This document shows positions 34,124 to 51,168 of a stretch of DNA of 64,000 bases, piece after piece (within the stretch, counting starts at the first letter, position 1; each line of letters begins with the position of its first letter). Below the pieces are notes generated by a model, which was not told where the DNA came from, searched no databases, and was given only the letters and a program-made list of their open reading frames with translations. The stretch lies in the NCBI RefSeq assembly GCF_025165815.1, contig NZ_JAFFZE010000012.1, positions 372,001-436,000 on the forward strand, in the 5' to 3' direction. This stretch comes from Actinophytocola gossypii. Its GTDB lineage: Bacteria; Actinomycetota; Actinomycetes; Mycobacteriales; Pseudonocardiaceae. The translations under genes and the position numbers were made by a program.

Positions 34124-35350
34124 CTACTGCCCCAACCGGGTGTGATGACCCAGGCGACTGCCGGCGTCGGTCGCGATCCGCTTCCCGGTCTCGGACAGGA
34201 CCATTCGGTAACGTGCTGTGGCGGCGGTTGCGCGGGCCCGGCCGAGGCCGACGACACCGACGAGCCGGCTGTCGCGGTGGTAGCCGACGATGACGTCGCC
34301 GTGGAGGTCGCCTTCCAGTATCCGGATGTCGTCGGTGCCGAGTTGGGGTGCGCCTATGGCTTGGAGGCGTTGGCCGTACTGGTCGCTCCAGAAGGTGGGC
34401 AGTGGCGCGAACGCCGGCTGGTCGACCGCTGCGCCGGTGAGGCTGGCGACGAGGGTGCGGGCGGCGTGTTTGGCGGTGTCGCCGGGGATGCTCCAGTGTT
34501 CGACGCGGCGCGGCGTGCTGTCGTAGCGGGCGTTGGGGAAGCGCGCGACGTCGCCCACCGCCACGGCGAACGGCAGTCCTTCGACCCGGAGGTGCTCGTC
34601 GCAGAGCACACCGTCGGACAGGTCGAGGCCGTTGCCGTTCAGCCATTCGGTGTTGGGTCGGGAACCGACCGCCTCGACGACGACGTCGGCGGGTAACACG
34701 GTGCCGTCGTCGAGCACGACCTGGTGGCGCTCGAACCGGGTGACCGTGCGTCCCAGGTGGAACCGGGCTCCCCGCTCCTCGTGGCGAGTCAGCAGTGCGG
34801 CGGCGAGTTGCTCCCCGAGGGGGCCGACCATCGGCAGGGGCAGCGGGTCCACGACCGCGACGTCGGCACCGAGCCGACGTGCGGTCGCCGCCACCTCACA
34901 ACCGACGAACCCGGCGCCGACGACGACCAGCCGCGTGCCGGGGCGCGCGGTGAGGGCGGTGTGGAGCCGGATCGCGTCGTCGAGGGTGCGGAGCACGTGG
35001 CCGTCGTCGGTGAGGCGGCGGGGGCGCAGGCCCGTCGCCACCACGAGGCCGTCGAAGTCGAGCGTCGTGCCGTCCGCGAGCGTCACCGCGCGGGCATCGA
35101 GGTCCACAGTGGATGCGGGGCTGCCGAGCAGCCAGACGGCGTCGGCGACGCTGGGCCGTTGCCGCAACATCACCGAGCCGGCCAGGGCCGTGCCCGCCAG
35201 TACCTCCTTGGACAGTGGGGGCCGGTTGTACGGCATGTGTGGCTCGGCACCGACGACGACGATCTCGGCGGTCCAGCCGGCGGCGCGCAGTTGCTCGGCG
35301 GCGCGCAGGCCACCCAGGGAGGCGCCCACCACGACGATGCGGGCTGGCAC
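34124..35350 (-). CDS. NAD(P)H:ferredoxin reductase (FAD)
   Basis: 408 aa, putidaredoxin-reductase type. FAD motif VVVGASLGGLRAAEQLRAAG at the start, YNRPPLSKEVL, the NAD motif LVVVGAGFVGCEVAATARRL near residue 150, and the second FAD motif FAVAVGDVARFPN. It passes electrons from NAD(P)H to the small ferredoxin encoded just upstream, which would feed the P450 at 43858. It is the last gene of the minus-strand operon that begins with the HpaE-like dehydrogenase; only 1 bp separates it from the ferredoxin gene. Confidence 0.88.
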   Translation of the reverse strand: MPARIVVVGASLGGLRAAEQLRAAGWTAEIVVVGAEPHMPYNRPPLSKEVLAGTALAGSVMLRQRPSVADAVWLLGSPASTVDLDARAVTLADGTTLDFDGLVVATGLRPRRLTDDGHVLRTLDDAIRLHTALTARPGTRLVVVGAGFVGCEVAATARRLGADVAVVDPLPLPMVGPLGEQLAAALLTRHEERGARFHLGRTVTRFERHQVVLDDGTVLPADVVVEAVGSRPNTEWLNGNGLDLSDGVLCDEHLRVEGLPFAVAVGDVARFPNARYDSTPRRVEHWSIPGDTAKHAARTLVASLTGAAVDQPAFAPLPTFWSDQYGQRLQAIGAPQLGTDDIRILEGDLHGDVIVGYHRDSRLVGVVGLGRARATAATARYRMVLSETGKRIATDAGSRLGHHTRLGQ

Positions 35351-35351
35351 G

Positions 35352-35540
35352 TCAGTCCTCGACCCGGATCGCCTGCAGCGGACAGACGTCCGCGGCTTCC
35401 TCCACGGCGTCGCGCAGGGACTCGTCCGGCTCGGGCACGTAGCCGAGCTTGCCGTTCTCGTCGAGGTGGAAGACCTCCGGCGCGGCGAACACGCACTGGC
35501 CGTGGTCCTGGCACGTCTCGAGGTCGACGACGACCCTCAT
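35352..35540 (-). CDS. [3Fe-4S]-type P450 ferredoxin
   Basis: 62 aa, typical size of actinomycete P450 ferredoxins. Cluster ligands CQDHGQC (Cys10 and Cys16) and CP (Cys53, in ADVCPLQAI); the second position of the CxxCxxC motif is His-Gly instead of Cys, which favours a 3Fe-4S cluster. Its ATG overlaps the stop of the FAH-like gene by 4 bp (ATGA). The partner reductase follows directly. Confidence 0.9.
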   Translation of the reverse strand: MRVVVDLETCQDHGQCVFAAPEVFHLDENGKLGYVPEPDESLRDAVEEAADVCPLQAIRVED

Positions 35541-36391
35541 GGCTGACCCCGTTTCGGTGGGCGGATGCCGCGGAACTCCCAGTCGCCGCCGAAGGCGGTC
35601 GAGACGACCTCCTCCGACTCGGTCGGCTGGGCGCCGCAGTCGTCGCGGACGGGAAGTTCACCGGTGACGATGTGGTTGGTGAGACGGCCGAGCCCGTCGA
35701 CCTCGACCTCGACGACGTCGCCCGGCTGTACGGGGCGGGAGTTCGCCGGCGTGCCGGACAGCAGCACGTCGCCCGGGTGGAGGGTGATGGTGCGGGCGAT
35801 GTCGGCGACGAGGTAGTGCATGTCCCAGGTCATCTCGTCGGTCGAGCCGTCCTGAACCACCTCTCCGTTGACGTAGGTGCGCATCCGCTTGCCGTGGAAG
35901 TCCCAGTCGGTGACCAGACCGGGGCCGAGCGGGCACAGGGTGTCCGAGCCCTTGACCCGCAGCATGGATCCGGCGTCGGTGTCGCGGAAGTCGTGCAGGC
36001 CGTAGTCGTTGGCGATGGTGTAGCCGGCGACGTACTTCCCCGCGTCGGCGGGTGCGACGCCGCGACAGGTGCGACCGATGACGATCGCCACCTCGCCCTC
36101 GTAGTTGAGGTACCGGCAGCCCGGCGGCCGCACCACCGCGCCCCGGTGGGCGTTCAGCGCCGAAGTGGGTTTGTGGAAGTAGGTCGGCGCCGGGGGAAGC
36201 GACACCATGAACTCCGCTACCCGGCTGTGATGGTTGAGGTGCACCGCGATGATCTTGGAGGGGACGACGGGCGGCAGGTGCACGGCGTCGTCGGCCCCGA
36301 CCCGGCGACCATCCCCCGCGACCAGTTCCGCACCGTCACGCACGACCTCCACCGTCGCGCCGTCGAGCAGGATCCTGCGTAGCTCGGGCAT
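35537..36391 (-). CDS. Fumarylacetoacetate-hydrolase-family enzyme (HpaG-type decarboxylase/isomerase)
   Basis: 284 aa. The FAH fold is clear: IIAVHLNHHSRVAEF, PTYFHKPTSALNAH, metal Glu residues in NYEGEVAIVIGR, and GYTIANDYGLHDFRD, KGSDTLCPLGPGLV and VLLSGTPANSRPVQPGD. This subfamily contains the 5-oxopent-3-ene-1,2,5-tricarboxylate decarboxylase / 2-hydroxyhepta-2,4-diene-1,7-dioate isomerase of the homoprotocatechuate pathway. It follows the HpaD-like gene with overlapping stop and start (TGATG), which supports that role, though other acylpyruvate substrates are possible. Confidence 0.82.
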   Translation of the reverse strand: MPELRRILLDGATVEVVRDGAELVAGDGRRVGADDAVHLPPVVPSKIIAVHLNHHSRVAEFMVSLPPAPTYFHKPTSALNAHRGAVVRPPGCRYLNYEGEVAIVIGRTCRGVAPADAGKYVAGYTIANDYGLHDFRDTDAGSMLRVKGSDTLCPLGPGLVTDWDFHGKRMRTYVNGEVVQDGSTDEMTWDMHYLVADIARTITLHPGDVLLSGTPANSRPVQPGDVVEVEVDGLGRLTNHIVTGELPVRDDCGAQPTESEEVVSTAFGGDWEFRGIRPPKRGQP

Positions 36392-37266
36392 CAGTGCCAC
36401 CCGTCCTCTGGGCGGTCGAACCACACGTGCACCTGGCCCGTGCCGACCGAGTTCTCGTACTCGCTGAACCCGCGGCCAGGCGCGGTGCAGCGCTCCTCCC
36501 CGAGCGCACCGATCATCATCAGGTAGTGGCCGAATCTGGCCTCCGGTTTGACGGCGAGGAACTCCGGCATGGTCTTGAGGACGAGGTCGTGCCGGCCTTC
36601 GGCGAACCAGGCCAGGCGCTGGTGGTCGGCTTCCCGTGCCGCTGCGCTGAAGATGTGCCTGGGATCGGCGGCCTCGTGGTCGCGCAGCTCGCGCAGCGGC
36701 CAGAAGGTGTGGGAGAGCGCGCCGGACGCGATGAGCACCACCTTGCGGTCGATGGCGGCGATTCCGGCGGCGAGGGCGCGGCCCAGCCGCAGGGAGTCCT
36801 CGGTGTCGGCGGTCTGGCACACCCCGATCGACACCCACCGCTTGTCGGGTACGCCGAGGTAGGTCCAGAGGTTGGTGGTGGCGTAGAAGATCGGCAGGTA
36901 CTGGTCGTCGATCGGGGTGATCCACGTGCCGTGGTCGCCCGCCTGCGCGGCGACCGCGTGCGCCAGCTCGGGGTCGCCGGGGAAGTCGTAGGGCATGCGG
37001 CACATCCCGCGCGGCAGTTCCTCGGAGGTGAACAGCCCGGCGCGGCGGGCATGGGAGGTGATCACGAACTCGACGGTCGTGGCCCAGTGCGAGTCCAGCA
37101 CCACGACCGTGTCGTAGTCGAGGGTCTCGAACACCTCCGAGCGAAGCCGTCGCAGGCCGGGCACGAGACTGGATTCCTTGCCCTCGTTGAGTTCCCGCCG
37201 TTGCTCCTCGGGCAGGACGATGGTGGGCACGTGGGACAGCAACCCCGCACCGACGATCTCACCCAT
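36391..37266 (-). CDS. hpaD: Class III extradiol dioxygenase, homoprotocatechuate 2,3-dioxygenase (HpaD) type
   Basis: 291 aa, LigB superfamily. It follows E. coli-type HpaD block by block: GLLSHVPTI (metal His), VVLDSHW, LFTSEELPRGMCRMPYDFPG with the NPEL-like DPEL, IASGALSHTFW (catalytic His), LKTMPEFLA, YLMMIGALG and NSVGTGQVHVWF. The enzyme opens the ring of 3,4-dihydroxyphenylacetate with Fe(II) and O2. The substrate is inferred from family resemblance plus HpaE- and HpaG-like neighbours. ATG 37266 lies inside the 3' end of the dehydrogenase gene (8-bp overlap). Confidence 0.83.
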   Translation of the reverse strand: MGEIVGAGLLSHVPTIVLPEEQRRELNEGKESSLVPGLRRLRSEVFETLDYDTVVVLDSHWATTVEFVITSHARRAGLFTSEELPRGMCRMPYDFPGDPELAHAVAAQAGDHGTWITPIDDQYLPIFYATTNLWTYLGVPDKRWVSIGVCQTADTEDSLRLGRALAAGIAAIDRKVVLIASGALSHTFWPLRELRDHEAADPRHIFSAAAREADHQRLAWFAEGRHDLVLKTMPEFLAVKPEARFGHYLMMIGALGEERCTAPGRGFSEYENSVGTGQVHVWFDRPEDGWH

Positions 37267-38749
37267 GCGTTCGCCACCCTTTCGGTGCCGTGACCGTGTT
37301 CTTCAGGTCGCAGTAGAAGTCGAAGCTCCAGTCGCCGCCCTCGCGGCCGATGCCGGACTGCCGGGAGCCACCGAACGGAGCGCGCAGGTCGCGGACGAAG
37401 AAGCAGTTGACCCACACCGTCCCCGCGACGAGACGCCCGGTCACCCGGTCGGCACGCCGCCGGTCCCCCGTCGCCACCACGGCGGCCAGACCGAAACGGG
37501 TGCTGTTGGCCAGGTCGACGGCCTCGTCCTCCGAGTCGAAGGTCTGGAGGGTGAGGACCGGGCCGAAGATCTCCTCGGTGAGCGCCTCGGCACCGGGCCG
37601 GAGACCGGTCAGCAGCGTTGGCCGGTAGTACAGGCCGCCGAGGTCGGTGTTCGGCCCGCCGCCGAGGACCGCCTCGGCGCCGTCGGCGATGGCCCTGCGG
37701 ACGAAGCCGTCCACGCGGGCCACGTGGTCGGGGTGGATGCTCGGTCCGACGTCGGTTGCCGCGTCGCGCGGGTCTCCCTGCCGTAGCGTGCTCGCGCGCG
37801 CGACGAACCGGTCCGTGAACTCGGCCGCCACCGACGACTCGACGAGCAGCCGGGTGCCGGCCAGGCACACCTGCCCCGCGTTGTCGTACTGCTCGACCGC
37901 GAGGTCGACGGCGAGGTCGAGGTCGGCATCGGCGAACACCAGCAGCGGTGACTTCCCACCCAACTCGAAACTGGTGGGCACCAGGTTGGTCGAGGCCGCC
38001 GCCGCGATGCGCCGCGCGGTCGGGACGGAGCCGGTGAAGCTGATCCGTCGCACCCCGGGGTGGGCGACGAGCGCGGCGCCGATCTCCTCGCCGTACCCCT
38101 GGACCACGTTGAGCACCCCGGGAGGGAGACCGGCCTCGGCGGCGATGTCGGCGAGCAGGGACGCGGTGAGCGGTGACCACTCGGCGGGTTTGAGGATCAC
38201 CGTGTTGCCGGCGGCGAGCGCGGGCGCGACCTTCCACGTCGCGAGCATCAGCGGCGCGTTCCATGGCGTGATCAGGACACACGGGCCGGCCGGGTCCCAG
38301 CTGACGTGGTTGGTGTGTTCGCGGGTGTCGAAGTCCGCGTGGGCCAGCTCGGTGAGCCGGTCGGCGAAGAACCGGAAGTTGTGGACGACGCGGGGCATGA
38401 CGCCGCGCAGGTGCGAGCGCAGCAGCGCCCCGTTGTCCCAGGTCTCGACGTTCGCCAGCTCGGCGAGCCGCCGCTCGACACCGTCGGCGACGCGGTGCAG
38501 GACCGCGGCGCGCTCGTCGCGGCTCGTGGCGGCCCAGCCGGGGAAAGCGGCACCGGCGGCGGCCACGGCCGCCTCCGCTTCCAGCGCTCCGCCGCGCGCC
38601 ACCTCGGCGAGCAGGCTCCCGTCGACAGGCGAGTGGTCGGCGAACCACCCGCCGGACGCGACGCGGGCACCGCCGATCCAGTGGCGGGTGTCCACCGGCA
38701 CACTCGCCACGGTCGCGGTGTGCGCGGCCGCACGAATCGGGACACTCAT
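37259..38749 (-). CDS. hpaE: Aldehyde dehydrogenase, HpaE-type (carboxymethyl-hydroxymuconate semialdehyde)
   Basis: 496 aa, complete ALDH. NAD site VLITPWNAPLMLATWK and KPAEWSPLTASLL, FTGSVPTARRI, the Glu in TSFELGGKSPLLVF and the catalytic Cys in DNAGQVCLAGTRLL (near 297). The C-terminus ends in APFGGSRQSGIGREGGDWSF, as in HpaE-like enzymes. Next to hpaD, oxidation of the ring-cleavage semialdehyde is the likely job. ATG 38749 has GGAG upstream. First gene of a five-gene minus-strand operon, controlled by the operator at 38810-38830. Confidence 0.83.
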   Translation of the reverse strand: MSVPIRAAAHTATVASVPVDTRHWIGGARVASGGWFADHSPVDGSLLAEVARGGALEAEAAVAAAGAAFPGWAATSRDERAAVLHRVADGVERRLAELANVETWDNGALLRSHLRGVMPRVVHNFRFFADRLTELAHADFDTREHTNHVSWDPAGPCVLITPWNAPLMLATWKVAPALAAGNTVILKPAEWSPLTASLLADIAAEAGLPPGVLNVVQGYGEEIGAALVAHPGVRRISFTGSVPTARRIAAAASTNLVPTSFELGGKSPLLVFADADLDLAVDLAVEQYDNAGQVCLAGTRLLVESSVAAEFTDRFVARASTLRQGDPRDAATDVGPSIHPDHVARVDGFVRRAIADGAEAVLGGGPNTDLGGLYYRPTLLTGLRPGAEALTEEIFGPVLTLQTFDSEDEAVDLANSTRFGLAAVVATGDRRRADRVTGRLVAGTVWVNCFFVRDLRAPFGGSRQSGIGREGGDWSFDFYCDLKNTVTAPKGWRTHG

Positions 38750-38761
38750 ACCGACTCCATT

Positions 38762-38782
38762 TCGTTTGATCCCAAATAAGAT
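38762..38782 (+). promoter_or_regulatory. Regulon operator A with adjoining -10 (plus-strand promoter)
   Basis: TCGTTTGATCCCAAA followed at once by TAAGAT. It points toward the PuuC-like gene, whose ATG is 60 bp downstream. It is one of six aligned sites in 38.7-51.3 kb with the same 15-bp palindrome plus -10-like hexamer; the palindrome would occupy the -35/-10 spacer, giving repression by blocking RNA polymerase. Confidence 0.75.
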
Positions 38783-38809
38783 TAGGTGGACCGGCGAACA
38801 CGGGTCAAG

Positions 38810-38830
38810 ATAATGTTTGGGCTCAAACGA
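38810..38830 (-). promoter_or_regulatory. Regulon operator B with adjoining -10 (minus-strand promoter)
   Basis: On the minus strand TCGTTTGAGCCCAAA is followed by CATTAT, pointing toward the hpaE-like operon 60 bp away. It faces operator A in the same 93-bp divergent region, with about 53 bp between palindrome centres. Confidence 0.75.
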
Positions 38831-38842
38831 GAGGAGTTGACG

Positions 38843-40327
38843 ATGGTCGACGGCACGCACCAGGACTGGGTCCGACTGGCGACCACCCTTCGCCTGCCGG
38901 CCGGTCATGTCGTCGACGGCACCGACGAGCCCGGCGGGGGCGGCACGTTCACCGTCGTCTCGCCACGCGACGGCTCGGCGCTGGCCGAGGTCGCCGACGG
39001 TGGGCAGCAGGAGGTCGACCTCGCGGTGGCCGCCGCCCGCCGCGCGTTCGACGCGGGGCCGTGGCCGCGCTGGTCGCCCGCCGACCGGGGCCGGGCGCTG
39101 ATCCGCCTCGCCGACCTGATCGAGCGGGACCGTGCCGTGCTGGCCGCGACGATCAGCCTGGAGACGGGCAAGCCGATAGCCGAGGCGTACGACATCGAGC
39201 TGCGCGCCGCGGCCGGCACGTTCCGCTGGTACGGCCAGCTCGCCGACAAACTGGCCGACGAGTCCCCGCACACCGGGCCCGACTCGCTGGCTCTCGTCAC
39301 CAGGGAACCGGTGGGCGTGGTGGCCGCCGTGGTGCCGTGGAACTTCCCGCTCACCCTGGCGTCCTGGAAGGTCGCACCGGCGCTGGCCGCGGGGTGCACG
39401 GTCGTGCTCAAGCCGTCCGAGCTGTCCCCGCTGTCGGCGTTGCTGCTCGGCCGACTCGCCATCGAGGCGGAGCTGCCCCCGGGTGTGCTGAACGTCGTGG
39501 CGGGCGACGGACCGACCACCGGCCGGGCGCTCGGCCTGCACGCGGACGTCGACGTGCTGGCGTTCACCGGTTCGACCGCGGTCGGCCGGCAGTTTCTGCG
39601 CTACGCGGCGGACTCCAACCTCAAGCGTGTGTGGCTGGAGCTCGGTGGCAAGTCGCCCAACATCGTGCTGCCCGACGCGCCGGACCTCGACCGGGCGGCC
39701 GCGACCGCGGCCTGGGGGATCTTCTTCAACCAGGGCGAGATGTGCACGGCACCCTCGCGCCTCCTCGTGCACAGCTCGATCGCCGAGCGGGTGACCGACG
39801 CGGTCGTGGCCCGGGCCGAGGCCCTGCGCATCGGCGATCCGCTCGACCCGGCCACCGCGATGGGCGCGCTCGTCGGCGAAACCCATCTCGCGAAGGTGCT
39901 CGACCACGTCGAGACCGGTCGGGCCGAAGGCGCCCGGCTGCGGACCGGCGGGGAGCGGCACGGCACGACCGGGACCTACCTCCAGCCGACCGTGTTCGAC
40001 CGGGTCGACCCCGGCATGCGGCTCGCCCGCGAGGAGATCTTCGGGCCGGTGCTGTCGGTGCTGACCTTCGACACCGTCGAGGAGGCCGTGCGCCTGGCGA
40101 ACGGTACCGACTACGGCCTGGCGGCGGGTCTGTGGACCGCCGACCTGACCACGGCGCACCGGATCGCGCGGGCCATGCGGGCGGGAACCGTGTGGGTCAA
40201 CTGCTACGAGGAGGGCGACCTGACGGTGCCCTTCGGCGGCGTCAAGCAGTCCGGCCACGGGCGGGACAAGTCGGTACACGCGCTGGACAAGTACACCGAC
40301 CTCAAGACGACCTGGATCCAGTTGTGA
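38843..40327 (+). CDS. Aldehyde dehydrogenase, PuuC-like (gamma-glutamyl-aminoaldehyde)
   Basis: 494 aa. ALDH landmarks: VVPWNFPLTLASWK, LKPSELSPLSALLL, FTGSTAVGRQF, LELGGKSPNIVL and catalytic Cys in NQGEMCTAPSRLLV. The C-terminus SGHGRDKSVHALDKYTDL with KTTWIQL matches the PuuC/AldH group, which oxidises gamma-glutamyl-gamma-aminobutyraldehyde and related aldehydes. ATG 38843 has GAGGAG 6 bp upstream. The next gene overlaps by 4 bp and encodes the matching gamma-glutamyl hydrolase, so a gamma-glutamyl aldehyde substrate is inferred. Confidence 0.85.
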   Translation: MVDGTHQDWVRLATTLRLPAGHVVDGTDEPGGGGTFTVVSPRDGSALAEVADGGQQEVDLAVAAARRAFDAGPWPRWSPADRGRALIRLADLIERDRAVLAATISLETGKPIAEAYDIELRAAAGTFRWYGQLADKLADESPHTGPDSLALVTREPVGVVAAVVPWNFPLTLASWKVAPALAAGCTVVLKPSELSPLSALLLGRLAIEAELPPGVLNVVAGDGPTTGRALGLHADVDVLAFTGSTAVGRQFLRYAADSNLKRVWLELGGKSPNIVLPDAPDLDRAAATAAWGIFFNQGEMCTAPSRLLVHSSIAERVTDAVVARAEALRIGDPLDPATAMGALVGETHLAKVLDHVETGRAEGARLRTGGERHGTTGTYLQPTVFDRVDPGMRLAREEIFGPVLSVLTFDTVEEAVRLANGTDYGLAAGLWTADLTTAHRIARAMRAGTVWVNCYEEGDLTVPFGGVKQSGHGRDKSVHALDKYTDLKTTWIQL

Positions 40328-40989
40328 CGCGGCCGTTGGTAGCGATCCCCGCCCGGTTCTCCGCCAGCGCCTCCGCCCTGCGGTTCCGCGCCGAGGTCGC
40401 CGCCCGCGCTCTCGTCGAAGCGGTGTTCCTGGCCGGTGGTGAACCGTGGGTGCTGCACCCGGACACGACCGACGTGGACGACCGGCTGGCCCGCTGCGAC
40501 GGCCTGCTGCTGCCCGGCGGCGGGGACCTCGCGCCGCACACGTACACCGCCGGGGACGTGCACGCGTCCGTCTACGACGTCGACGAGGAGCAGGACGCCT
40601 TCGACCTGGCCGCCGCCAGGTACGCCCTCGAGGCCGGGCTTCCCACCCTCGCGATCTGCCGCGGCCTGCACGTGGTGAACGTGGCGCTGGGCGGTAGCCT
40701 CCACCAGGACATGACGAGCCCGCACCAGCACGTCGTGCACCCGGTGGCGCTGCACCCCGACTCGGCGCTGGCCGCGATCAGGCGGGCGGACAAGGTCGAG
40801 GCGTCGTGCTTCCACCACCAGTGCGTCGACCGCCTCGCGGAGGGCCTGAGACCGGTGGCGTGGGCGGTCGACGGCACCGTCGAGGCAGTGGAACGCACGG
40901 CGCCCGGCTGGTTCGTCGCGGTCCAGTGGCACCCCGAGGACAACCCGGACCAGTGGCTGTTCGACGCGTTCGTCTCCGCCGCTCGCTAG
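40324..40989 (+). CDS. Class I glutamine-amidotransferase-like gamma-glutamyl hydrolase (PuuD-like)
   Basis: 221 aa, peptidase C26 fold. Catalytic triad: Cys in LAICRGLHVVNVALGG (near 118), His and Glu in VAVQWHPEDNP (near 203). DGLLLPGGGDLAPHTY is the oxyanion-side loop typical of PuuD and of AtdA2/TdnT-like hydrolases. It releases glutamate from a gamma-glutamylated acid or amine. Its GTG overlaps the dehydrogenase stop (GTGA). With the GS-like enzyme at 42500 it completes a gamma-glutamylation cycle. Confidence 0.87.
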   Translation: MTRPLVAIPARFSASASALRFRAEVAARALVEAVFLAGGEPWVLHPDTTDVDDRLARCDGLLLPGGGDLAPHTYTAGDVHASVYDVDEEQDAFDLAAARYALEAGLPTLAICRGLHVVNVALGGSLHQDMTSPHQHVVHPVALHPDSALAAIRRADKVEASCFHHQCVDRLAEGLRPVAWAVDGTVEAVERTAPGWFVAVQWHPEDNPDQWLFDAFVSAAR

Positions 40990-43846: not shown

Positions 43847-43857
43847 GGAGACTGGCC

Positions 43858-45117
43858 TTGAGCGACACCATGTCACTGTCCGAGGTGGATCTCACCGACA
43901 ACGACCGCTTTCTCGACGGTGTGACGCCGTGGCGGATGTTCGACGCCCTCCGCCGGCACGATCCCGTGCACTGGCAGCCGGAGCCGGCGCCCAACAGCGG
44001 TTTCTGGGCGGTGACGAGGCACGCGGACATCGTTCGGGTGGACCGGGACCCGGACACGTTCACCTCGACCCGGTTCGTCAACCTGGAGGAGGTCGACGAC
44101 GACCTCATGGAGATCCGCCGTTCCATGCTGGAGACCGACGGCCCCCGCCACCACACGCTGCGCCGGCTGCTGCAGCGGGACTTCTCGCACCGCGCGGTGG
44201 CCCAGTACGAGGTGTTCCTGCGCGGGCTGACGGCCCACACGCTCGACGCGGCGCTCGCCAAGGGCCGGTTCGACTTCGTCGCCGACATCGCCGCCGACTT
44301 CCCGATCAACGTGCTCGCCAGGATGCTCGACGTTCCCGACGGCGACACACGCAAGCTCATCGAGTGGGGCAACCGCATCATCGGCAACACCGACCCCGAC
44401 TACGCCGACGTGTTGCTGCACAGCGAGGAGAGCGAGCGCTACCGGAACCTGCCGTTCCGCAGCCCGGCCGCGCTCGAGGTCTTCGCCTACGGCAGGGCGC
44501 TGGCCGCCGAACGCCGGGGCGGCACGGGCACGGACCTGGTCAGCAAGCTCGCCAACCAGCTCCCCGCCGACGGGACCCCGTTGTCGGACAACGACTTCGA
44601 CAACTACTTCCTGCTGCTCGTGGTCGCCGGGAACGAGACCACCCGGCACGCCATCTCGCACTCGATGCTGGCGCTGCTACAGCACCCGGACCAACTCGCC
44701 CGCCTGCGGGAGGAGCCCGCCCTCATGCCCACCGCGGTGGAGGAGTTCCTGCGCTGGGCCTCGCCGGTCTACCACTTTCGCCGCACCGCGACCCGCGACG
44801 TCGAACTCGGCGGGACGCGGATCCGGGAAGGTGACAAGGTCGTGCTGTGGTTCGCCTCCGGCAACCGGGACGAGGACGTGTTCGACGATCCCTACACCTT
44901 CGACGTCGGCCGGCGGAACAACGACCACGTCACGTTCGGCAAGGGCAGCCCGCACTTCTGCCTCGGCAACACGCTCGCCCGCCTGGAGATCCGGGTCATC
45001 TTCGAGGAACTGCTGCCCAGGCTCGCCGACATCCGGCTGGCGGGCGAGGTGCGGCGGGTCCGGTCCAACTTCGTCAACGGCATCAAGGAGCTGCCGGTCG
45101 AGGTGACGCTCGCATGA
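43858..45117 (+). CDS. Cytochrome P450 of the amine/aromatic operon
   Basis: 419 aa. I-helix LLVVAGNETTRHAISHS (near 255), ExxR in EEFLRWASPVYHFRR and haem loop TFGKGSPHFCLGNTLARLEI with ligating Cys near 369. It resembles CYP124/125/268-like enzymes that hydroxylate chains or terpenoid-like groups (EEVDDDLMEIRRSMLETDG, PRHHTLRRLLQRDFSHRAV). In this operon it could oxidise the gamma-glutamyl amide at the carbon next to nitrogen or on the ring, with the ferredoxin and reductase at 34-35.5 kb as donors. TTG 43858 is preferred because GAGGAG lies 7 bp upstream; ATG 43870 is an alternative. Confidence 0.88.
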   Translation: MSDTMSLSEVDLTDNDRFLDGVTPWRMFDALRRHDPVHWQPEPAPNSGFWAVTRHADIVRVDRDPDTFTSTRFVNLEEVDDDLMEIRRSMLETDGPRHHTLRRLLQRDFSHRAVAQYEVFLRGLTAHTLDAALAKGRFDFVADIAADFPINVLARMLDVPDGDTRKLIEWGNRIIGNTDPDYADVLLHSEESERYRNLPFRSPAALEVFAYGRALAAERRGGTGTDLVSKLANQLPADGTPLSDNDFDNYFLLLVVAGNETTRHAISHSMLALLQHPDQLARLREEPALMPTAVEEFLRWASPVYHFRRTATRDVELGGTRIREGDKVVLWFASGNRDEDVFDDPYTFDVGRRNNDHVTFGKGSPHFCLGNTLARLEIRVIFEELLPRLADIRLAGEVRRVRSNFVNGIKELPVEVTLA

Positions 45118-46043
45118 CACCTCGGATGTTGATCGTCCTGAGCGAGAACTGGACCATGACGTCCGGCCGGGACCTGCCCCGGCTGGTCCGCTGGGCACAG
45201 GAGGCCGAGGACGCCGGCTTCGACGCCGTCATGGTCAGCGAACACGTCGTGCTCGGCCCCGACGCCGCCGAGCACGGCGTCATGGCCAACCCCCGCGACT
45301 ACGCGCTGCCCGGCAACCAGGACCCGGCCACGCCCTGGCCCAGCTCGCTGCCGCTGCTGTCGGCCATCGCGGCCGCGACCCGGCGCGTTCGACTGGTCGC
45401 CGGCGCGGTACTGGCGCCCCTGCGCCATCCCCTGCTACTGGCCAAGGAACTGGCCACCCTCGACCTGCTGAGCGAGGGCAGGCTCGTGGTGCTGCCGAGC
45501 GTGAGCTGGAGCCGGGACGAGTACGCCGCGCTCGGCGTGCCGTTCGGGAAGCGGGGGCGACTCCTCGACGAGCACCTCGAGGTGTGGCAGCAGGCGTGGG
45601 GGCCGTCTCCCGCCTCGTACGAGGGCGCCCACTACCGTTTCGCCGACGTGTACTGCGAACCCAAACCCCACCGGCCCGGCGGGCCGCCACTGTGGTTCGG
45701 CGGCGCGACCGTGCACGACCGCCTGCTGGCCCGGCTGGTCCGGTACGGCAAGGGCTTCAACCCGCTCGGCCGCCCGAGCCCGCAGGACCTTCGGCGGCTC
45801 ACGGACGGCCTGACCGCGGCCGGTCGGAGCATCGACGAGCTGGAGCTGGTCGGCGGCACCCGAGCGGTCTTCCCCGACGACCACTCCCCCGCCGACCTCG
45901 GCCGTGCCCTGGACACCATCCCCGCCCAGCAGGCCGAGGGCTTCACCACCTTCTGCGTCAAGCCGTCCCAGTTCACCGACGACCCCGACGCCGTCGGCGC
46001 CTTCTGCGCCGACGTGATGCGCCGGGTGTCGGTGTTCGGCTGA
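45114..46043 (+). CDS. LLM-class flavin-dependent oxidoreductase
   Basis: 309 aa, bacterial luciferase-like TIM barrel. DLPRLVRWAQEAEDAGFDAV, MVSEHVVLGPDA, LLSAIAAATRRVRLVAGAVL, HPLLLAKELATLDLLSEGRL and PSVSWSRDEYAALGVPFGKR are typical; the cofactor may be FMN or F420. It overlaps the P450 stop by 4 bp (ATGA), so the two act in the same pathway. A dehydrogenation or monooxygenation of the same intermediate is inferred. Convergent with the permease gene, 3 bp apart. Confidence 0.85.
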   Translation: MTPRMLIVLSENWTMTSGRDLPRLVRWAQEAEDAGFDAVMVSEHVVLGPDAAEHGVMANPRDYALPGNQDPATPWPSSLPLLSAIAAATRRVRLVAGAVLAPLRHPLLLAKELATLDLLSEGRLVVLPSVSWSRDEYAALGVPFGKRGRLLDEHLEVWQQAWGPSPASYEGAHYRFADVYCEPKPHRPGGPPLWFGGATVHDRLLARLVRYGKGFNPLGRPSPQDLRRLTDGLTAAGRSIDELELVGGTRAVFPDDHSPADLGRALDTIPAQQAEGFTTFCVKPSQFTDDPDAVGAFCADVMRRVSVFG

Positions 46044-46046: not shown

Positions 46047-47504
46047 TCAGCTGAGCTCCGCGGTCAGGTCCTTCGTCGCGGTGGGGCTGAGCCGGCCACG
46101 GACCGCGCCGTAGGCGAGGAAACCCAGCACGAACGCCACCGGCACGGTGAGCATCAGGACCACCGCCGTGACGCCGGTGCCGCCGGCCAGGGTGTCGAAG
46201 TTGGCCAGCACCAGGACCAACGCGGCGACCATCGTGACCACCGAGAGCAGCGGCGCCACCCGGGTGTGCCAGGCTCGGCCGTCCTGTTCGGGGTTGGCGC
46301 GGAAGTACCAGAACGCCGCCACCGAGCTCAGCGCGTAGAGGCCGAGGATGCCGATCACGCCGACACCGGACCCCCAGAAGAACAGCGTGGCGACCGGGTC
46401 CGCCCCGGCCAGCATGAACGGCGCCATGAGCACAACGATCGACACGGTCTGCGTCATCGACGCCACGTAGGGCGCCTTCGTCCTCGGGTGCACCGCGGAC
46501 AGTCGCCGTGGGAGCACCCCGTCGCGGCCCACCGTGAACAGGTAGCGGGATATGCCGTTGTGGAAGGCGAGTGTCGCGGCGAACATCGACGTGATCACGA
46601 AGGCGCTCATCGCGTGTGGCGCCCACGCGCCGAGGTAGGTGCCGCCCGCGCCGAAGACGAAGGCCGCCGGGTCACCGGACTCCACCGCGGCGCCGGCCGA
46701 GGCCACCGCACCCGACGGGCCGTACCCGACGATCAGGGTCCAGGACATGAACAGGAAGAACCCGGTGATGAGCAGGACCGACAGGTAGGTCGCCCGCGCC
46801 ACCGTCCGCTTCGGACTGCGGGCCTCCTCCCCGTAGATCGCACTGGACTCGAAGCCGAACATCGACGCGAAGCCGAACACCAGCGCCACCCCCGGCGCAC
46901 CGCTCAGCGCACCCTCGAGCGAGAACACCTGGGAGACCCCGAGGCCCTCGCCGGCGCCGCCCCGCACCAGGATCACCAGGCCGAGCACCAGCATGATGCC
47001 CCACTCCAGCGCCATCAGGACCCCCAGCACCCGCGCGCCGAGCTCGATCCGCAGGTAGCCGAACACCTGCACCAGCACGACCAGCCCGAGCGTCACCGCC
47101 CACCAGGGCAGCCGCAGCCCGGTCCACGACTCGAGCGCGGCACCGCCGACGACGCCGAAGAAGCCGTAGACGGCCGCCTGGATCGCGGTGTACGACCAGA
47201 CCGCCACGCCAGCCGCGCCCAGGCCGGTGCGCAGGCCGAGCCCGCGACCGACGTAGGCGTAGAGCGCGCCTGCGTTGGTGACCCGCCGCGACATCGCGAC
47301 GAAGCCGACGCAGAACACCAGCAACACCAGTCCGACGGCGACATAACCCAGTGACACGCCGAGCCCGTTGCCGACGACCATCGCGCTCGGGACCGCACCG
47401 GTAAGGCCGACCAGCGGACTGGCCGCCGCGAGGACGAGGAACACGATGCCGGCCGCGGAGATCGCATCCCGCTTGAGCCCACCAGCGGGCTGATCAGTGA
47501 CCAT
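46047..47504 (-). CDS. APC-superfamily amino-acid/amine permease
   Basis: 485 aa with about 12 membrane segments, for example ISAAGIVFLVLAAASPLVGL with TGAVP, VAVWSYTAIQAAVYGFFGVV and AFVITSMFAATLAFHNGISRY. The TM1 region contains the unwound-helix glycine motif used for substrate binding in this family. Family members import amino acids or amines with protons. It is the last gene of the minus-strand operon with the two amidohydrolases, which suggests import of their amine product. ATG 47504 follows GAAGGAC, 10 bp after the amidohydrolase stop. Confidence 0.88.
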   Translation of the reverse strand: MVTDQPAGGLKRDAISAAGIVFLVLAAASPLVGLTGAVPSAMVVGNGLGVSLGYVAVGLVLLVFCVGFVAMSRRVTNAGALYAYVGRGLGLRTGLGAAGVAVWSYTAIQAAVYGFFGVVGGAALESWTGLRLPWWAVTLGLVVLVQVFGYLRIELGARVLGVLMALEWGIMLVLGLVILVRGGAGEGLGVSQVFSLEGALSGAPGVALVFGFASMFGFESSAIYGEEARSPKRTVARATYLSVLLITGFFLFMSWTLIVGYGPSGAVASAGAAVESGDPAAFVFGAGGTYLGAWAPHAMSAFVITSMFAATLAFHNGISRYLFTVGRDGVLPRRLSAVHPRTKAPYVASMTQTVSIVVLMAPFMLAGADPVATLFFWGSGVGVIGILGLYALSSVAAFWYFRANPEQDGRAWHTRVAPLLSVVTMVAALVLVLANFDTLAGGTGVTAVVLMLTVPVAFVLGFLAYGAVRGRLSPTATKDLTAELS

Positions 47505-47514
47505 GGAAAGTCCT

Positions 47515-49335
47515 TCAGTGTCGATGAGTCATCTCGGCCAGCCGGCAGCAGCACGTGCCGTTCTGGAGGTGGGCCAGCCCGCGCTCGGGACTGACGGCGA
47601 CGGGCCGGGCGGTCGGGGCACCTTCGTGAACCACCCGCCCGCCCACCACGGTCGCCGTGACGGGCAGGTCGACCAGTTCGTGCGGGTCGACGGCCAGCAC
47701 GTCGCCGCCGACGACGCAGACGTCCGCGACCATGCCCTCGGCGAGCGTGCCCTTCCAGGCGGTCGCGTGGTCCTGCCACGCGGGCGTCCGGGTGTAGGTC
47801 GCGAGCGCCTCGGGCAGCGTGATGCGCTCGGCCTCGCCGGCGACGCCGCCGAACATGCCCTCGCGCAGCACGGCGGACATCACCCCCTGCAACCAACTCG
47901 GCGAGGTCACCGGCGCGTCCGAGGAACTGGACACCCGCACACCCAGGTCGAGCGCGCTGCGGTACGGCCACTGGTAGTCCGTGCGCTCCGGTCCGAGCAC
48001 CGGGTCGAGCGTGCGGCCGAGCAGGTACTTGATGGTCGCGTTCATGTTCACGCCGATGTCGTGCCGCGCCATCGTCCGCAGCGTCGTCCGCGGAGTGAGG
48101 TCGCCGTGGATCACGTAGTGGCGCGGATCCCCACGACGCCCGGCCTTGAGGTACCCCGCGACGACCGCGTCGATCGTCGCGTCGCCGGTGGCGTGCGTGC
48201 CGACCTGCATGCCGGCGCGCGCGGCGATGCGGATCAGCTCGTGCAGGTTGGCGACCTGCTCGGCGACGGTCGCGCCGTCGATGACCAGGCTGCCGTTGGT
48301 GCCGTCCAGGTACGGCTCGGAAAGCCACGCCGTCTTCGCCGCGGTCGGGATGCCGTCGGCGAACAACTTGACCCCGGCGACCCGCAGCACCCGCGGGTCG
48401 ACACCCCGCGGCGGGCGGTACGCGGCCAGGACGTCGCGCAGTTGCTGTGGTGCGGTGCCGCCGCGCAACAGGGCGTTGACGCGCACGCCGAGCGCGCCGG
48501 CGCGTGCCTTCTCCGCGTAGATCGCCAGCGTGTCCAGGTCGATACCGGGCTCGGTGATGCTCGTGATGCCCTGCTCGAGCAGCATCCCGATGCCGGTGTC
48601 GATGCTCTGCGCCACCTCCTCCCGGGTGAACGGCGGCACCAGCGCGCGGACCAGGCCGGCGGCGGTCTCGCGCAGCACACCGGTGGGCTCCCCCGCGGCG
48701 TCCTTCTCGATCACACCGCCGGTGGGCGGCACGGTGTCCCTGGTGATGCCGGCCAGCCGCAGCGCGACGGAGTTGACGGCCACCGCGTGGCCCGAGAAGT
48801 CGGTGAGGATGACCGGGTGGTCGCCGGTGACCGGGTCGAGGTCGGTGCGCCGCGGCGGGCGCGGCAGCCGGTTGTCGTTCCAGCCCGTGCCGCGGATCCA
48901 GCTGTCCGGCGAGGGCGCCTCCCCGACCGCCGTGCGCACCACGGCCACCAGGTCCTCGATCGTCGCCGTGTCCACGTCGTAGGAGAACGGCGGCAGGTTC
49001 AGTCCGAGGGCGTTGAGGTGGACGTGGGAGTCGTTGATACCGGGCAGCACCGTCCCGCCACCGGCGTCGAGCACCCGCGTGCGTTTGCCGATGAGCCGGC
49101 ACACCTCGCGGTCCCGGCCGACGGCGACCACCCGGCCGCCTCGCACCGCGAGCGCCTCCGCCACGCGGAACCGACGGTCGAGGACCAGGACCCGGCCGCC
49201 GCGGACGACCAGGTCCGCACCGAAGCCGCCTCGGCTCGCCTGCGCGGACGTTCCGGTCAGTGAACTCGCGGCCGCGGCACCCGCGACGGCGGCCGTTCCC
49301 CGCAGCAGCGTCCGACGGCCCACTTCATGACTCAT
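47515..49335 (-). CDS. Tat-exported amidohydrolase family 3 (YtcJ/NfdA-like), copy 2
   Basis: 606 aa. Twin-arginine signal GRRTLLRGTAAVAGAAAASS, then DLVVRGGRVLVLDRRFRVAE (N-terminal beta sandwich), the metal HxH in NDSHVHLNALGLNLP (near 97), SWIRGTGWNDNRLP, VGTHATGDATIDAVVAGY and a late SSSDAPVTSP with the catalytic Asp. This group includes N-substituted formamide deformylase of similar length (about 605 aa), which frees amines from N-formyl amides. The export signal implies action outside the cell. 12 bp downstream of the paralogous first copy; ATG 49335 follows AAGGAG. Confidence 0.85.
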   Translation of the reverse strand: MSHEVGRRTLLRGTAAVAGAAAASSLTGTSAQASRGGFGADLVVRGGRVLVLDRRFRVAEALAVRGGRVVAVGRDREVCRLIGKRTRVLDAGGGTVLPGINDSHVHLNALGLNLPPFSYDVDTATIEDLVAVVRTAVGEAPSPDSWIRGTGWNDNRLPRPPRRTDLDPVTGDHPVILTDFSGHAVAVNSVALRLAGITRDTVPPTGGVIEKDAAGEPTGVLRETAAGLVRALVPPFTREEVAQSIDTGIGMLLEQGITSITEPGIDLDTLAIYAEKARAGALGVRVNALLRGGTAPQQLRDVLAAYRPPRGVDPRVLRVAGVKLFADGIPTAAKTAWLSEPYLDGTNGSLVIDGATVAEQVANLHELIRIAARAGMQVGTHATGDATIDAVVAGYLKAGRRGDPRHYVIHGDLTPRTTLRTMARHDIGVNMNATIKYLLGRTLDPVLGPERTDYQWPYRSALDLGVRVSSSSDAPVTSPSWLQGVMSAVLREGMFGGVAGEAERITLPEALATYTRTPAWQDHATAWKGTLAEGMVADVCVVGGDVLAVDPHELVDLPVTATVVGGRVVHEGAPTARPVAVSPERGLAHLQNGTCCCRLAEMTHRH

Positions 49336-49347
49336 GTCGACTCTCCT

Positions 49348-51168
49348 TCAGCAGTGCGCGCACATGTGCTCCGGCCGGGCGCCCGCCGCCACGGTCGCCG
49401 CCGGTGCGGCGTCCGAAGCGTCGTAGGCGACCGTGCCGCCGACCACGGTCCAGGCGACCGGGACGGCCGAGATGTCGTGCGGATCCATCGCGAGCCGGCC
49501 CCGGTCGTCGAGGAGACGGTGGTCCAGAACGCAGACGTCCGCCGCCATCCCGGGCCGCAGCGTGCCCTTCCAGTTCTCCGCGTTGTCCTGCCAGGCCGCG
49601 GCGGTCGTGTAGGTCCGCAGCGCGTCGCGTAGTCCGATCCGTTCGTCCGGACCGGACACCGCGCCGGAACCGCCTTCCCGCAGCAGCGCGGTTTCCAAGC
49701 CCTGCCGCCAGTCCGGGGACACGTTCGGCGCGTCCGACGCGCTCGTCACCGTCACACCCGCACGCAGCGCCGACCGGTACGGCGTCTGGTAGGCGGCCCG
49801 CTCGGCACCGACCACCGCGGGTTGGGAGTCGGCGATCAGGTGCTTGATGTTCGGGTTGAGGCTCACCCCGCACCCGTTCCAGGCCAGCAGGCGCAGGGTC
49901 TCCGGCCACGCGAAGTCACCGTGGATGACGTAGTGCCTGCTACGGTGCCTGTCGTGCCGGGTTCGGCATCGCGCGTACGCGGCGGCCACGGCGTCGATCG
50001 CGGCGTCGCCCGTGGCGTGCGTGCCCACCTGCAGCCCTGCCTGGTGAACCAACCGGATCATGGCGGTCAGCTCGGCGGCCCTCTCCTCGTCGGTGTCCCC
50101 GGCCGTCACCAGGCTCCCCCTGCCGCCACCGATGTACGGTTCGCGCATCCACGCCGTCCGACTGGCTATGGGCACCCCGTCGGCCCGGAGCTTCACCCCG
50201 GTCATGGCGAACCAGCGCGGATCGGTCCTCACTGGCGGCGCCGCCAGGATCTCCCGCACCTGGTCGACCGATACCGGGTACGTGTCGTCCGCCCGGTTCG
50301 CCAGCGCGGTGACCCGGACCCGCAGCGACCCGTTCCCGGCCTTGTCCGCGTAGAGCCGTCGCGCGGTCTCACCGAGGCCGGGCTCGGTGTAGCTGGTGAT
50401 TCCCAGGCTCAGCAGCACGTCGATGGTCTTCTCGATCGCGTCCGCCTGTTCCTCCTCAGTGAACGGCGGAATGTGAGCGTTCACCAAGCCCATGGCCGTC
50501 TCCAGGAGAAGCCCGGTCGGCTCGCCGGCGGGGTCCTTCACGATGACCCCGCCCGGGGGCGCGGGCGTCGTGGCTGTCACCCCGGCGATCTCCAGGGCCT
50601 TGCTGTTGACCCACAACTGGTGGTTCGACCAGTCCAACAACGCCACCGGATGGTTGGGCGCGACAGCATCCAGGTCCGCTCGCGTCGGTGGCCTGCCCTC
50701 CGCGAACTTCGCGTCGTCCCAACCTTTCCCGCGAACCCACGCTCCCGGTTCGGCCTGCGCCACGGCCTCGCCGACGACCGCCGCGACATCCACGATGGAC
50801 GCGAGATCCACGTTCACGTTGTACGGCGGAAGCGACAGCCCGGTACGCAATCCGTGCAGGTGTGAGTCGTTGATTCCCGGTAGGACGGTGCGGCCCCGCA
50901 GGTTGATCACTTCCGTCCGCCGACCGATGAACCGGCGCACCGAGCGGTCGTCGCCGACGTGGACCACCCGGCCGTTCCGCATGGCCACGGCCTCCGCGAC
51001 GGTGAACCGCCGGTCCATGACCAGCACCTGCCCGCCGTGCAGCACCAGCTCGGCCGCGCCGTTGGCCGCACCCGCCCGCCCCGGCAACGCTCCCGCCACC
51101 ACCGACCCGGCGGCAACGGCCGCCACACCCCGCAACACCCCCCGGCGCCCGATGTGCAAGTCATCCAT
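49348..51168 (-). CDS. Tat-exported amidohydrolase family 3 (YtcJ/NfdA-like), copy 1
   Basis: 606 aa, exactly the length of the downstream copy and similar throughout, so a tandem duplication. Signal GRRGVLRGVAAVAAGSVVAG, metal HxH in NDSHLHGLRTGLSLP, AWVRGKGWDDAKFAEGR, GTHATGDAAIDAVAAAY, YVIHGDFAWPETL and SASDAPNVSP. ATG 51168 is chosen because GAGGAG lies 7 bp upstream; an upstream ATG at 51207 has none. First gene of the three-gene operon driven by the promoter at 51231-51259. Divergence between copies suggests different amide substrates. Confidence 0.85.
   Translation of the reverse strand: MDDLHIGRRGVLRGVAAVAAGSVVAGALPGRAGAANGAAELVLHGGQVLVMDRRFTVAEAVAMRNGRVVHVGDDRSVRRFIGRRTEVINLRGRTVLPGINDSHLHGLRTGLSLPPYNVNVDLASIVDVAAVVGEAVAQAEPGAWVRGKGWDDAKFAEGRPPTRADLDAVAPNHPVALLDWSNHQLWVNSKALEIAGVTATTPAPPGGVIVKDPAGEPTGLLLETAMGLVNAHIPPFTEEEQADAIEKTIDVLLSLGITSYTEPGLGETARRLYADKAGNGSLRVRVTALANRADDTYPVSVDQVREILAAPPVRTDPRWFAMTGVKLRADGVPIASRTAWMREPYIGGGRGSLVTAGDTDEERAAELTAMIRLVHQAGLQVGTHATGDAAIDAVAAAYARCRTRHDRHRSRHYVIHGDFAWPETLRLLAWNGCGVSLNPNIKHLIADSQPAVVGAERAAYQTPYRSALRAGVTVTSASDAPNVSPDWRQGLETALLREGGSGAVSGPDERIGLRDALRTYTTAAAWQDNAENWKGTLRPGMAADVCVLDHRLLDDRGRLAMDPHDISAVPVAWTVVGGTVAYDASDAAPAATVAAGARPEHMCAHC

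Follow-up and report, generated by a model that had tools for sequence, protein, structure and literature searches.

Why should a single block of genes join enzymes that attach and remove a gamma-glutamyl group to enzymes that open a catechol ring? The question is posed by a 64-kb stretch of Actinophytocola gossypii DNA (contig NZ_JAFFZE010000012.1, positions 372,001 to 436,000; hereafter the window), part of a 7.38-Mb draft genome in 53 contigs. Open reading frame (ORF) listing, translation, and hidden Markov model scans of 15 window proteins (Pfam and NCBIfam models; the cut-offs given are the curated NCBIfam ones) found every gene that an earlier note had placed at 34-51 kb to be an intact ORF of the family stated: a glutamine-synthetase-like (GS-like) ligase, PuuC-like and PuuD-like enzymes, an hpaE-hpaD-FAH set, a cytochrome P450 with its redox partners, and an LLM oxidoreductase. 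We think it probable that these genes form one regulon for the catabolism of tyramine and/or dopamine, with the amine shielded by the gamma-glutamyl group while the ring is cleaved; the block would then, just as probably, be a variant of gamma-glutamylation-based amine catabolism, new in that the cap is retained through ring cleavage. A broader proposal is favored with slightly less confidence: that this is a widespread, undescribed actinomycete tyramine/dopamine pathway, with a glutamyl protecting group through extradiol cleavage, an MppR-like protein replacing HpaH and HpaI, convergence with polyamine catabolism on gamma-glutamyl-gamma-aminobutyric acid (gamma-glutamyl-GABA), and parts recruited into non-ribosomal peptide clusters.

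The route that we infer would begin with the GS-like ligase forming N-gamma-glutamyl-tyramine or -dopamine, after which the P450, with its ferredoxin and reductase, would hydroxylate the ring to give the catechol. An HpaD-like dioxygenase would cleave this catechol at the 2,3-position, an HpaE-like aldehyde dehydrogenase (ALDH) would oxidize the semialdehyde, and the FAH protein would decarboxylate the product. The MppR-like protein would hydrate the 2-oxo-3-enoate and cleave it by a retro-aldol reaction to pyruvate and gamma-glutamyl-gamma-aminobutyraldehyde, which the PuuC-like ALDH would oxidize to gamma-glutamyl-GABA and the PuuD-like hydrolase would split into GABA and glutamate. Control would fall to a MarR repressor acting on TTTGNNNNCAAA. 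These last intermediates are familiar ones: gamma-glutamyl-gamma-aminobutyraldehyde is the substrate of PuuC, and gamma-glutamyl-GABA that of PuuD. If the amine were free, it would be expected to cyclize with the product of ring cleavage, as happens in betalamic acid and in the lincomycin route, which would explain the glutamyl cap; with the cap retained through ring cleavage, every core gene except the LLM oxidoreductase would have a step. Carbon bookkeeping on an atom graph (seven catechols at two cleavage positions, or 14 cases), which follows rules of our own choosing and is no evidence of activity, arrives at gamma-glutamyl-aminobutyraldehyde only from gamma-glutamyl-dopamine with 2,3-cleavage; the same graph takes homoprotocatechuate to succinic semialdehyde, as it should, and 3,4-dihydroxyphenylalanine (DOPA) to a C5 gamma-glutamyl semialdehyde.

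The genes of the proposed route lie close together. About twelve core genes run from the ferredoxin reductase (FdR) to the LLM oxidoreductase. On the minus strand, the ferredoxin reductase, ferredoxin (Fdx), FAH, LigB-type dioxygenase, and HpaE-like ALDH genes overlap or nearly so; the MarR regulator and the MppR-like gene are also on this strand, as are, further on, an APC permease and two amidohydrolase-3 genes. The plus strand carries two units, PuuC-like with PuuD-like, and GS-like with P450 and LLM. By coordinates, the overlaps are 4 nt for GS-P450, P450-LLM, PuuC-PuuD, and ferredoxin-FAH, and 8 nt for HpaE-HpaD. The features are as follows.

34124..35350, minus strand: ferredoxin reductase (FAD, pyridine-nucleotide-disulfide type; PF07992/PF14759), presumably serving the P450
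35352..35540, minus strand: single-cluster ferredoxin, 62 aa (PF13370/PF13459)
35537..36391, minus strand: FAH-family enzyme (general FAH model; PDB 1gtt, 1wzo), proposed decarboxylase/isomerase of the ring-cleavage product
36391..37266, minus strand: LigB-type extradiol dioxygenase (PF02900), HpaD-like but distinct, proposed to carry out 2,3-cleavage of N-gamma-glutamyl-dopamine
37259..38749, minus strand: HpaE-like aldehyde dehydrogenase (TIGR02299), proposed to oxidize the ring-cleavage semialdehyde
38765..38776, no strand: operator-like palindrome TTTGATCCCAAA, in the hpaE/puuC divergent promoter
38816..38827, no strand: operator-like palindrome TTTGGGCTCAAA, in the hpaE/puuC divergent promoter
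38843..40327, plus strand: PuuC-like aldehyde dehydrogenase (NF007352), proposed gamma-glutamyl-gamma-aminobutyraldehyde dehydrogenase
40324..40989, plus strand: PuuD-like amidotransferase-fold hydrolase (PF07722), proposed gamma-glutamyl-GABA hydrolase
40986..41558, minus strand: MarR-family regulator (PF01047), start codon uncertain
41588..42385, minus strand: acetoacetate-decarboxylase-like (MppR-like) protein (PF06314, TIGR04460), proposed hydratase-aldolase releasing pyruvate
42464..42475, no strand: operator-like palindrome TTTGTATCCAAA, in the adc/gs divergent promoter
42500..43846, plus strand: glutamine-synthetase-like ligase (PF00120), proposed gamma-glutamyl-tyramine/dopamine synthetase
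43843..45117, plus strand: cytochrome P450 (PF00067), proposed ring 3-hydroxylase of (gamma-glutamyl-)tyramine
45114..46043, plus strand: LLM-class F420-dependent-type oxidoreductase (TIGR03619), accessory
46047..47504, minus strand: APC-family permease (PF13520), proposed to take up the amine
47515..49335, minus strand: amidohydrolase-3 family protein (PF07969) with a twin-arginine-like leader (by eye), proposed to release amine from an amide
49348..51207, minus strand: second amidohydrolase-3 family protein (PF07969) with a twin-arginine-like leader (by eye)
51237..51248, no strand: one-mismatch operator-like site TTCGGACCCAAA, upstream of the amidohydrolase-APC unit

The palindrome TTTGNNNNCAAA occurs three times in the window against 0.10 expected, and none of 100 shuffles held three or more sites. 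Two sites lie in the hpaE/puuC divergent promoter and one in the adc/gs divergent promoter; with palindromes in both, two bidirectional promoters flank all 12 core genes. For the 13-base form, GTTTGNNNNCAAA, the draft genome holds only these three sites (five strand-wise matches; the reversed pattern, as a control, gave two). At the level of sequence, the shared palindrome and the gene overlaps thus bear out the claim of the earlier note that the block is co-regulated, and both pathway halves look like one regulon under a common operator-like palindrome. We propose that the MarR protein, which reaches only 51 bits with the HpaR model (cut-off 121), may bind and repress through these sites.

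Relatives were compared in two sets. The first came from a search of 390 genomes of the same family, in which the best six candidates per genome were scored for the dioxygenase and the MppR-like protein and the best four for a decarboxylase, so that its counts are lower bounds: a dioxygenase match was present in at least 69 of the 390 genomes and was close (69-100% identity) in at least 28, the window genome included. The other 27 close genomes supplied 28 loci (L037-L064; hereafter family loci). The second set came from a scan of genome contigs with two peptide patterns, the best 80 of 552 relatives being compared; 56 of these scan loci have more than 20.5 kb of sequence (full-flank loci) and 24 are shorter. 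Seven scan loci duplicate DNA of the family set, including that of Kibdelosporangium banguiense, Amycolatopsis xylanica, and Lentzea. The scan loci derive from Streptomyces, Kitasatospora, Actinomadura, Nonomuraea, Sphaerisporangium, Blastococcus, Kibdelosporangium, and others.

Seven core genes (HpaE, HpaD, FAH, MppR-like, GS, PuuC, and PuuD) occur together in 40 of the 56 full-flank loci, or 36 of 49 once the seven shared with the family set are removed. Counted singly over the 56, matches were found to HpaE (55), FAH (55), MppR-like (52), GS (51), P450 (44), MarR (44), PuuC (43), and PuuD (43), and to the accessory Fdx (29), FdR (29), and LLM (20); APC homologues at 40% identity or more occur in 29. 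Over the best 80 loci, the counts are HpaE 78, FAH 79, MppR-like 65, GS 60, PuuC 63, PuuD 61, P450 50, and LLM 27. Gene order is also conserved, with HpaE-HpaD-FAH adjacent in 78 of 78 loci, GS directly before P450 in 46 of the 50 having both, and the MppR-like gene immediately preceding HpaE in 38 of 65. In 54 of 59 loci puuC precedes puuD at a distance of no more than 60 nt, and in 52 of these 59 the two overlap by 4 nt, which is what consecutive action of PuuC and PuuD would predict. Many Streptomyces loci carry Fdx-FdR-MppR-like-HpaE-HpaD-FAH-APC-PuuC-PuuD in one direction with GS-P450 divergent.

The palindrome accompanies the genes in these relatives. It is found in 53 of the 56 full-flank loci, and at least one exact copy occurs in 21 of the 28 family loci. 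Within the full-flank loci, 119 of 127 palindromes fall in zones that reach from 300 bp before the start of a cluster-gene tblastn match to 60 bp inside it and comprise 15.6% of the bases; the consensus from 166 sites is about ATNTYGTTTGRNNYCAAACRANNT. One-mismatch sites such as TTCGGACCCAAA, of which 2.13 are expected by chance in the window, are alone no rarer than chance. Sixteen other loci hold an amidohydrolase gene, and in nine of them (L090, L093, L095, L101, L116, L123, L146, L151, and L163) a site with zero or one mismatch stands upstream of such a gene, a count with no chance baseline. The earlier note's union of gamma-glutamylation with homoprotocatechuate-like meta-cleavage is supported, in that the two halves share one operator-like palindrome, are conserved together, and have no published description that we could find in the open-access literature, to which the search was largely confined.

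Some further observations concern the contents of these loci. The amidohydrolases at 47515-51207 and in L090, L116, L123, and L163 might free tyramine from N-acyl amides outside the cell, and degenerate operator-like sites lie upstream of the amidohydrolase genes in the window and in the same four loci. Near the block, a class-A-beta-lactamase-like ORF (31519-32391) and a D-Ala-D-Ala-carboxypeptidase-like ORF (33358-33918) were recognized by eye. A second class-I glutamine-amidotransferase-like gene, which the window cluster does not have, occurs in 31 of the 80 scan loci (e.g., L087:2394-3116; one member scanned). In L056, L059, and L061, HpaE-HpaD-FAH-MppR-like occurs without GS and with a carboxylesterase-family gene nearby, and L056 and L059 also have a TetR-type gene. 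Two record titles look wrong for the content: L092 (Rhodococcus rhodnii NRRL B-16535) is the same DNA as a locus of family genome G217 and shares its genus with the Kibdelosporangium genomes, and L127 (a Bifidobacterium breve metagenome-assembled genome) is probably a contaminant contig.

What do the individual proteins say about the gamma-glutamylation half? The GS-like protein scores 336 bits with PF00120; its best NCBIfam model is type III glutamate-ammonia ligase (309 bits, cut-off 470), and it reaches 257 of the 650 bits of the PuuA gamma-glutamylputrescine synthetase model. The flap glutamate has a role in canonical GS, where it stands in KRLVPGYEAP; in the GS-like protein a Leu aligns with it, and of 60 orthologues 40 have KRFGPDTLAP, 18 have a close variant without Glu at that position, and two were unmatched. 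In a midpoint-rooted tree, 68 cluster sequences (60/60 called GS of the scan loci, the window, and 7/21 family GS; seven scan loci duplicate family DNA) group in a single clade, from which five paralogues of the source genome are separate. For the PuuC-like ALDH, the PuuC model NF007352 is the best (561 bits, cut-off 850), 77 bits over the next; it is also best in three orthologues, and across these four cluster proteins its lead over the next model is 52-94 bits. The PuuD-like hydrolase scores 165 bits with PF07722 (Peptidase_C26), and its best NCBIfam model is PuuD (64 bits, cut-off 266); its CRG and WHPE motifs (Cys, His-Glu) are present in all 61 called orthologues.

The block resembles the Puu putrescine pathway (PuuA-PuuB-PuuC-PuuD) in its GS-like ligase, its PuuC-like and PuuD-like enzymes, and proposed final intermediates identical to those of Puu chemistry as we know it. 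It differs in that no PuuB-type oxidase was found among the 15 window proteins scanned, and the source of the aldehyde here would be an aromatic amine whose ring is cleaved, in place of a diamine. In the GlnA4 route for ethanolamine utilization in Streptomyces, the glutamyl group is proposed to be retained to the acid stage and then hydrolyzed (PMC6529630), much as proposed here, whereas the substrate there is aliphatic and no ring chemistry is involved. The source genome has what looks like a separate GlnA4 ethanolamine locus (L080:6141-11907, contig C8), with GS-like, PuuD-like, ALDH, short-chain dehydrogenase, GntR-like, and permease-like genes; the PuuC model is not among the matches listed at 1e-125 for its ALDH. 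According to PMC11335346, aniline dioxygenation relies on a Rieske-type dioxygenase together with a GS-like enzyme and a hydrolase of amidotransferase-like type. The aniline Tdn/Atd and 1-naphthylamine systems likewise have a GS-like enzyme that glutamylates an aromatic amine, with the catechol cleaved later (PMC11335346), but the Rieske-type dioxygenase of the aniline systems converts the amine to a catechol, whereas here the amine would be retained through ring cleavage.

The ring-cleavage half was claimed to act on homoprotocatechuate, a claim that the score of the dioxygenase does not support. The protein reaches 135 bits against the HpaD model TIGR02298 (cut-off 315.95), whereas a control dioxygenase from the same family of bacteria, at locus L068, scores 332.8. 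Residues H60 and H186 are invariant, and H12 and E242 nearly so, among 14 aligned sequences (four of them HpaD-type controls); presumably these have the metal and acid-base roles that they have in LigB. The HpaE-like ALDH has the HpaE model TIGR02299 as the best of 42 (512 bits, cut-off 638), as do two orthologues, and the FAH protein scores best with the general FAH model (237 of 444 bits), with 202 bits for the HpaG C-terminal model TIGR02303 (cut-off 276). The control locus is one of four (L068-L071) chosen from at least 19 family genomes with a more distant dioxygenase (31-34% identity). The L068 dioxygenase is accompanied by a regulator resembling FeaR (174 of 199 bits) and by an aldolase that scores best with the HpaI-not-DapA model (340 of 397 bits) and also passes the dapA cut-off. 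No GS, PuuD, or MppR-like match was found in L068-L071 (family models were scanned in L068 only), and the L068 aldolase had no match at any of the 80 scan loci, the loci alone being searched. A second dioxygenase match was not found in the window genome (family search, best six candidates scored). Nor did HpaH (TIGR02312, the one hydratase family searched) have a match there, with the control being weak (one of 14 genomes matched, none over the cut-off).

A plain Hpa cluster was rejected on these grounds: the dioxygenase under the HpaD cut-off, HpaH not found, and no L068-type aldolase at the 80 loci. The likeness to the Hpa pathway lies in the adjoining HpaE-HpaD-FAH families and a MarR-type regulator; the differences are a distinct dioxygenase subfamily, an MppR-like protein in place of HpaH/HpaI, and gamma-glutamylation-type enzymes under a common operator-like palindrome.

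Together with the MarR regulator, the MppR-like gene had been overlooked in the otherwise correct earlier gene calls. The MppR-like protein scores 177 bits with the MppR model TIGR04460 (cut-off 380) against 41 bits with the acetoacetate decarboxylase model PRK02265, and its PDB matches are 6eej/4zbo, 4jm3 (MppR), and 5upb. We take 4zbo to be Sbi00515 and 5upb to be Swit_4259, both aldolase-dehydratases. A QGYPKK motif, present in 63 of 65 called orthologues, aligns with the GxPK stretch of MppR and 6eej/4zbo, and its lysine is presumably the Schiff-base lysine. The subfamily (71-81% identity to the window protein) occurs in at least 24 of the 390 family genomes, always at the HpaD-like locus, the next matches being about 35-43% identical. 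An aldolase-dehydratase run in reverse is a hydratase-aldolase and would do the same work as HpaH plus HpaI; we propose that the MppR-like protein may be such a single enzyme. The MppR-related proteins Sso1221/Sso1222 are suggested as a possible aldolase of an archaeal phenol meta-pathway (PMC7820114); they share the family, the lysine motif, and the association with meta-cleavage, while the protein here belongs to a distinct subfamily and is proposed as a single hydratase-aldolase.

Could the side chain nevertheless be degraded first? The earlier note had proposed side-chain oxidation and release of an arylacetate, followed by attack on the ring. That order is not supported, since by chemical reasoning oxidation of a gamma-glutamylated monoamine next to the nitrogen frees glutamine and leaves PuuD without a substrate; the PuuB-type oxidase missing from the scanned proteins, the low HpaD score of the dioxygenase, and the HpaH not found under its weak control point the same way. 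The order can be repaired if the P450 N-dealkylates gamma-glutamyl-dopamine to 3,4-dihydroxyphenylacetaldehyde and glutamine, the PuuC-like enzyme forms homoprotocatechuate, HpaD, HpaE, FAH, and the MppR-like protein yield pyruvate and succinic semialdehyde, and PuuD trims excess amide. This version, which uses the same genes, we regard as unlikely, though it survives better than any other alternative. P450s are capable of N-dealkylation, and the PuuC-like ALDH also scores 483 bits with the phenylacetaldehyde dehydrogenase (StyD) model. For gamma-glutamylanilide, a hydrolase with such a trimming role has been described (PMC11335346). It is opposed by the HpaD-like protein lying far under a cut-off that a dioxygenase of the same family of bacteria exceeds, by the 4-nt puuC-puuD overlap (52/59 loci), and by the retention of PuuC and PuuD in 9 of the 10 loci that have GS without a P450 of this type. 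Moreover, glutamylation is not evidently needed if the P450 can oxidize the amine, and tyramine would be left without a ring hydroxylase.

On the substrate, the claim of an arylethylamine fits in part: a tyrosine-decarboxylase-like pyridoxal-phosphate (PLP) gene lies in 13 of the 28 family loci, but not in the window cluster. The nearest PDB sequence to this decarboxylase is titled 'non canonical aromatic amino acid decarboxylase', and a homologue occurs in all 28 cluster genomes against at least 75 of 362 others (kinship ignored). With the gene patchy and outside the window cluster, tyramine and/or dopamine is our best guess from the sequence. Beside the cluster at L045 (G247:C2:725654-726062), two short broken decarboxylase matches are perhaps a decayed copy. 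A term search of a review on poly- and monoamine metabolism (PMC9397018) did not find tyramine, dopamine, or phenethylamine in its text, and open-access papers retrieved with gamma-glutamyltyramine-type terms included none on bacterial catabolism, judging by titles and the openings of abstracts.

The same logic could apply to tyrosine or DOPA itself, leading to gamma-glutamyl-glutamate semialdehyde, or to a 3-methoxytyramine-type phenethylamine with the P450 as demethylase; we consider this doubtful, and a little less likely than the repaired side-chain route. The gene set would be identical, the atom graph does take DOPA to a C5 gamma-glutamyl semialdehyde, and the decarboxylase-like genes of the source genome lie outside the cluster. 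Against it stand the decarboxylase-like gene in the family loci and the best models PuuC and PuuD, which serve gamma-glutamyl C4 compounds.

Less likely again, and improbable overall, is a biosynthetic set, with the glutamyl-capped amine going into a natural product after its ring has been cleaved. This is suggested by L062-L064, where GS-P450-decarboxylase-HpaE-HpaD-FAH adjoins non-ribosomal peptide synthetase (NRPS) genes and one gene of the GGACT (gamma-glutamyl cyclotransferase-like) family and where MppR-like, PuuC, and PuuD had no match, and by L065-L067, where a dioxygenase 52-55% identical lies beside DIT1/PvcA-like and TauD-type genes. For the window, it is countered by the lack of NRPS or polyketide synthase among the proteins scanned, and more widely by the retention of PuuC, PuuD, and MppR-like in 40 of the 56 full-flank loci. 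We read L062-L064 as a recruitment of the glutamyl-capped upper pathway, possibly toward a natural product. KS-III-like, SDR, and MFS genes also lie beside the set in L062-L064 and L081 (families scanned in L062 only). The L065-L067 loci (L065:4030-10427), with two TauD-type genes and an asparagine-synthase-type gene (families scanned in L065) and, in L065 and L066, an HpaB-type gene, have the look of an isonitrile-type cluster, so far undescribed, that includes ring cleavage.

Least likely of all, a very slight prospect, is that the block detoxifies or salvages polyamines or an unrelated aromatic amine of the aniline type. Polyamines, ethanolamine, and aniline are indeed handled by GS-like enzymes that have amidotransferase-like partners. 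Against this, no Rieske-type dioxygenase subunits were found among the 15 window proteins scanned, the gamma-glutamylputrescine synthetase score is 257 of 650 bits, contig C8 carries a GlnA4-like locus of its own, and a polyamine pathway would have no use for a dedicated ring dioxygenase. A plain polyamine locus was rejected.

Several observations weigh against the favored tyramine/dopamine route, beyond the chosen rules of the atom graph. To our knowledge, no member of these subfamilies has a known activity, and no protein of the set reaches a naming NCBIfam cut-off except the LLM oxidoreductase (TIGR03619, 190.5 bits, cut-off 166.9), itself the only core gene without a step. No HpaF-like isomerase was assigned, PuuC and PuuD are each missing from 13 of the 56 full-flank loci, and 7 of the 28 family loci have no exact palindrome. 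The PLP decarboxylase falls far under its cut-off (best NCBIfam model tyrosine decarboxylases, 134 of 299 bits), a decarboxylase-like gene occurs in just 4 of the 80 scan loci, and the two in the window genome are elsewhere (C28, C16), with no palindrome in the stretches fetched. The P450 would hydroxylate the ring, an inference against which its nearest PDB relatives are of CYP125/CYP124 type, not ring hydroxylases, and a P450 of this type is absent from 12 of the 56 full-flank loci. No common replacement gene was seen by eye in the P450-less loci L089, L091, L101, L104, L112, L142, and L162. Six family loci (L043, L049, L050, L052, L053, and L055) have an FAD oxidoreductase near the decarboxylase and no such P450; of these proteins the one from L050 was scanned and gave weak matches to DAO and amine oxidoreductase, which make an oxidase step possible in those six.

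If the tyramine/dopamine reading is true, Streptomyces, Actinomadura, Nonomuraea, and relatives of the source genome would have a full pathway for degrading catecholamine-type amines, and this pathway would give an example of a protecting-group strategy in primary metabolism. It would assign functions to three subfamilies, one GS-like, one HpaD-like, and one MppR-like, and would explain the presence of PuuC/PuuD-like enzymes beside ring-cleavage genes, the final fragment being one already familiar to polyamine-degrading enzymes. The common palindrome makes such a regulon directly testable in Streptomyces.

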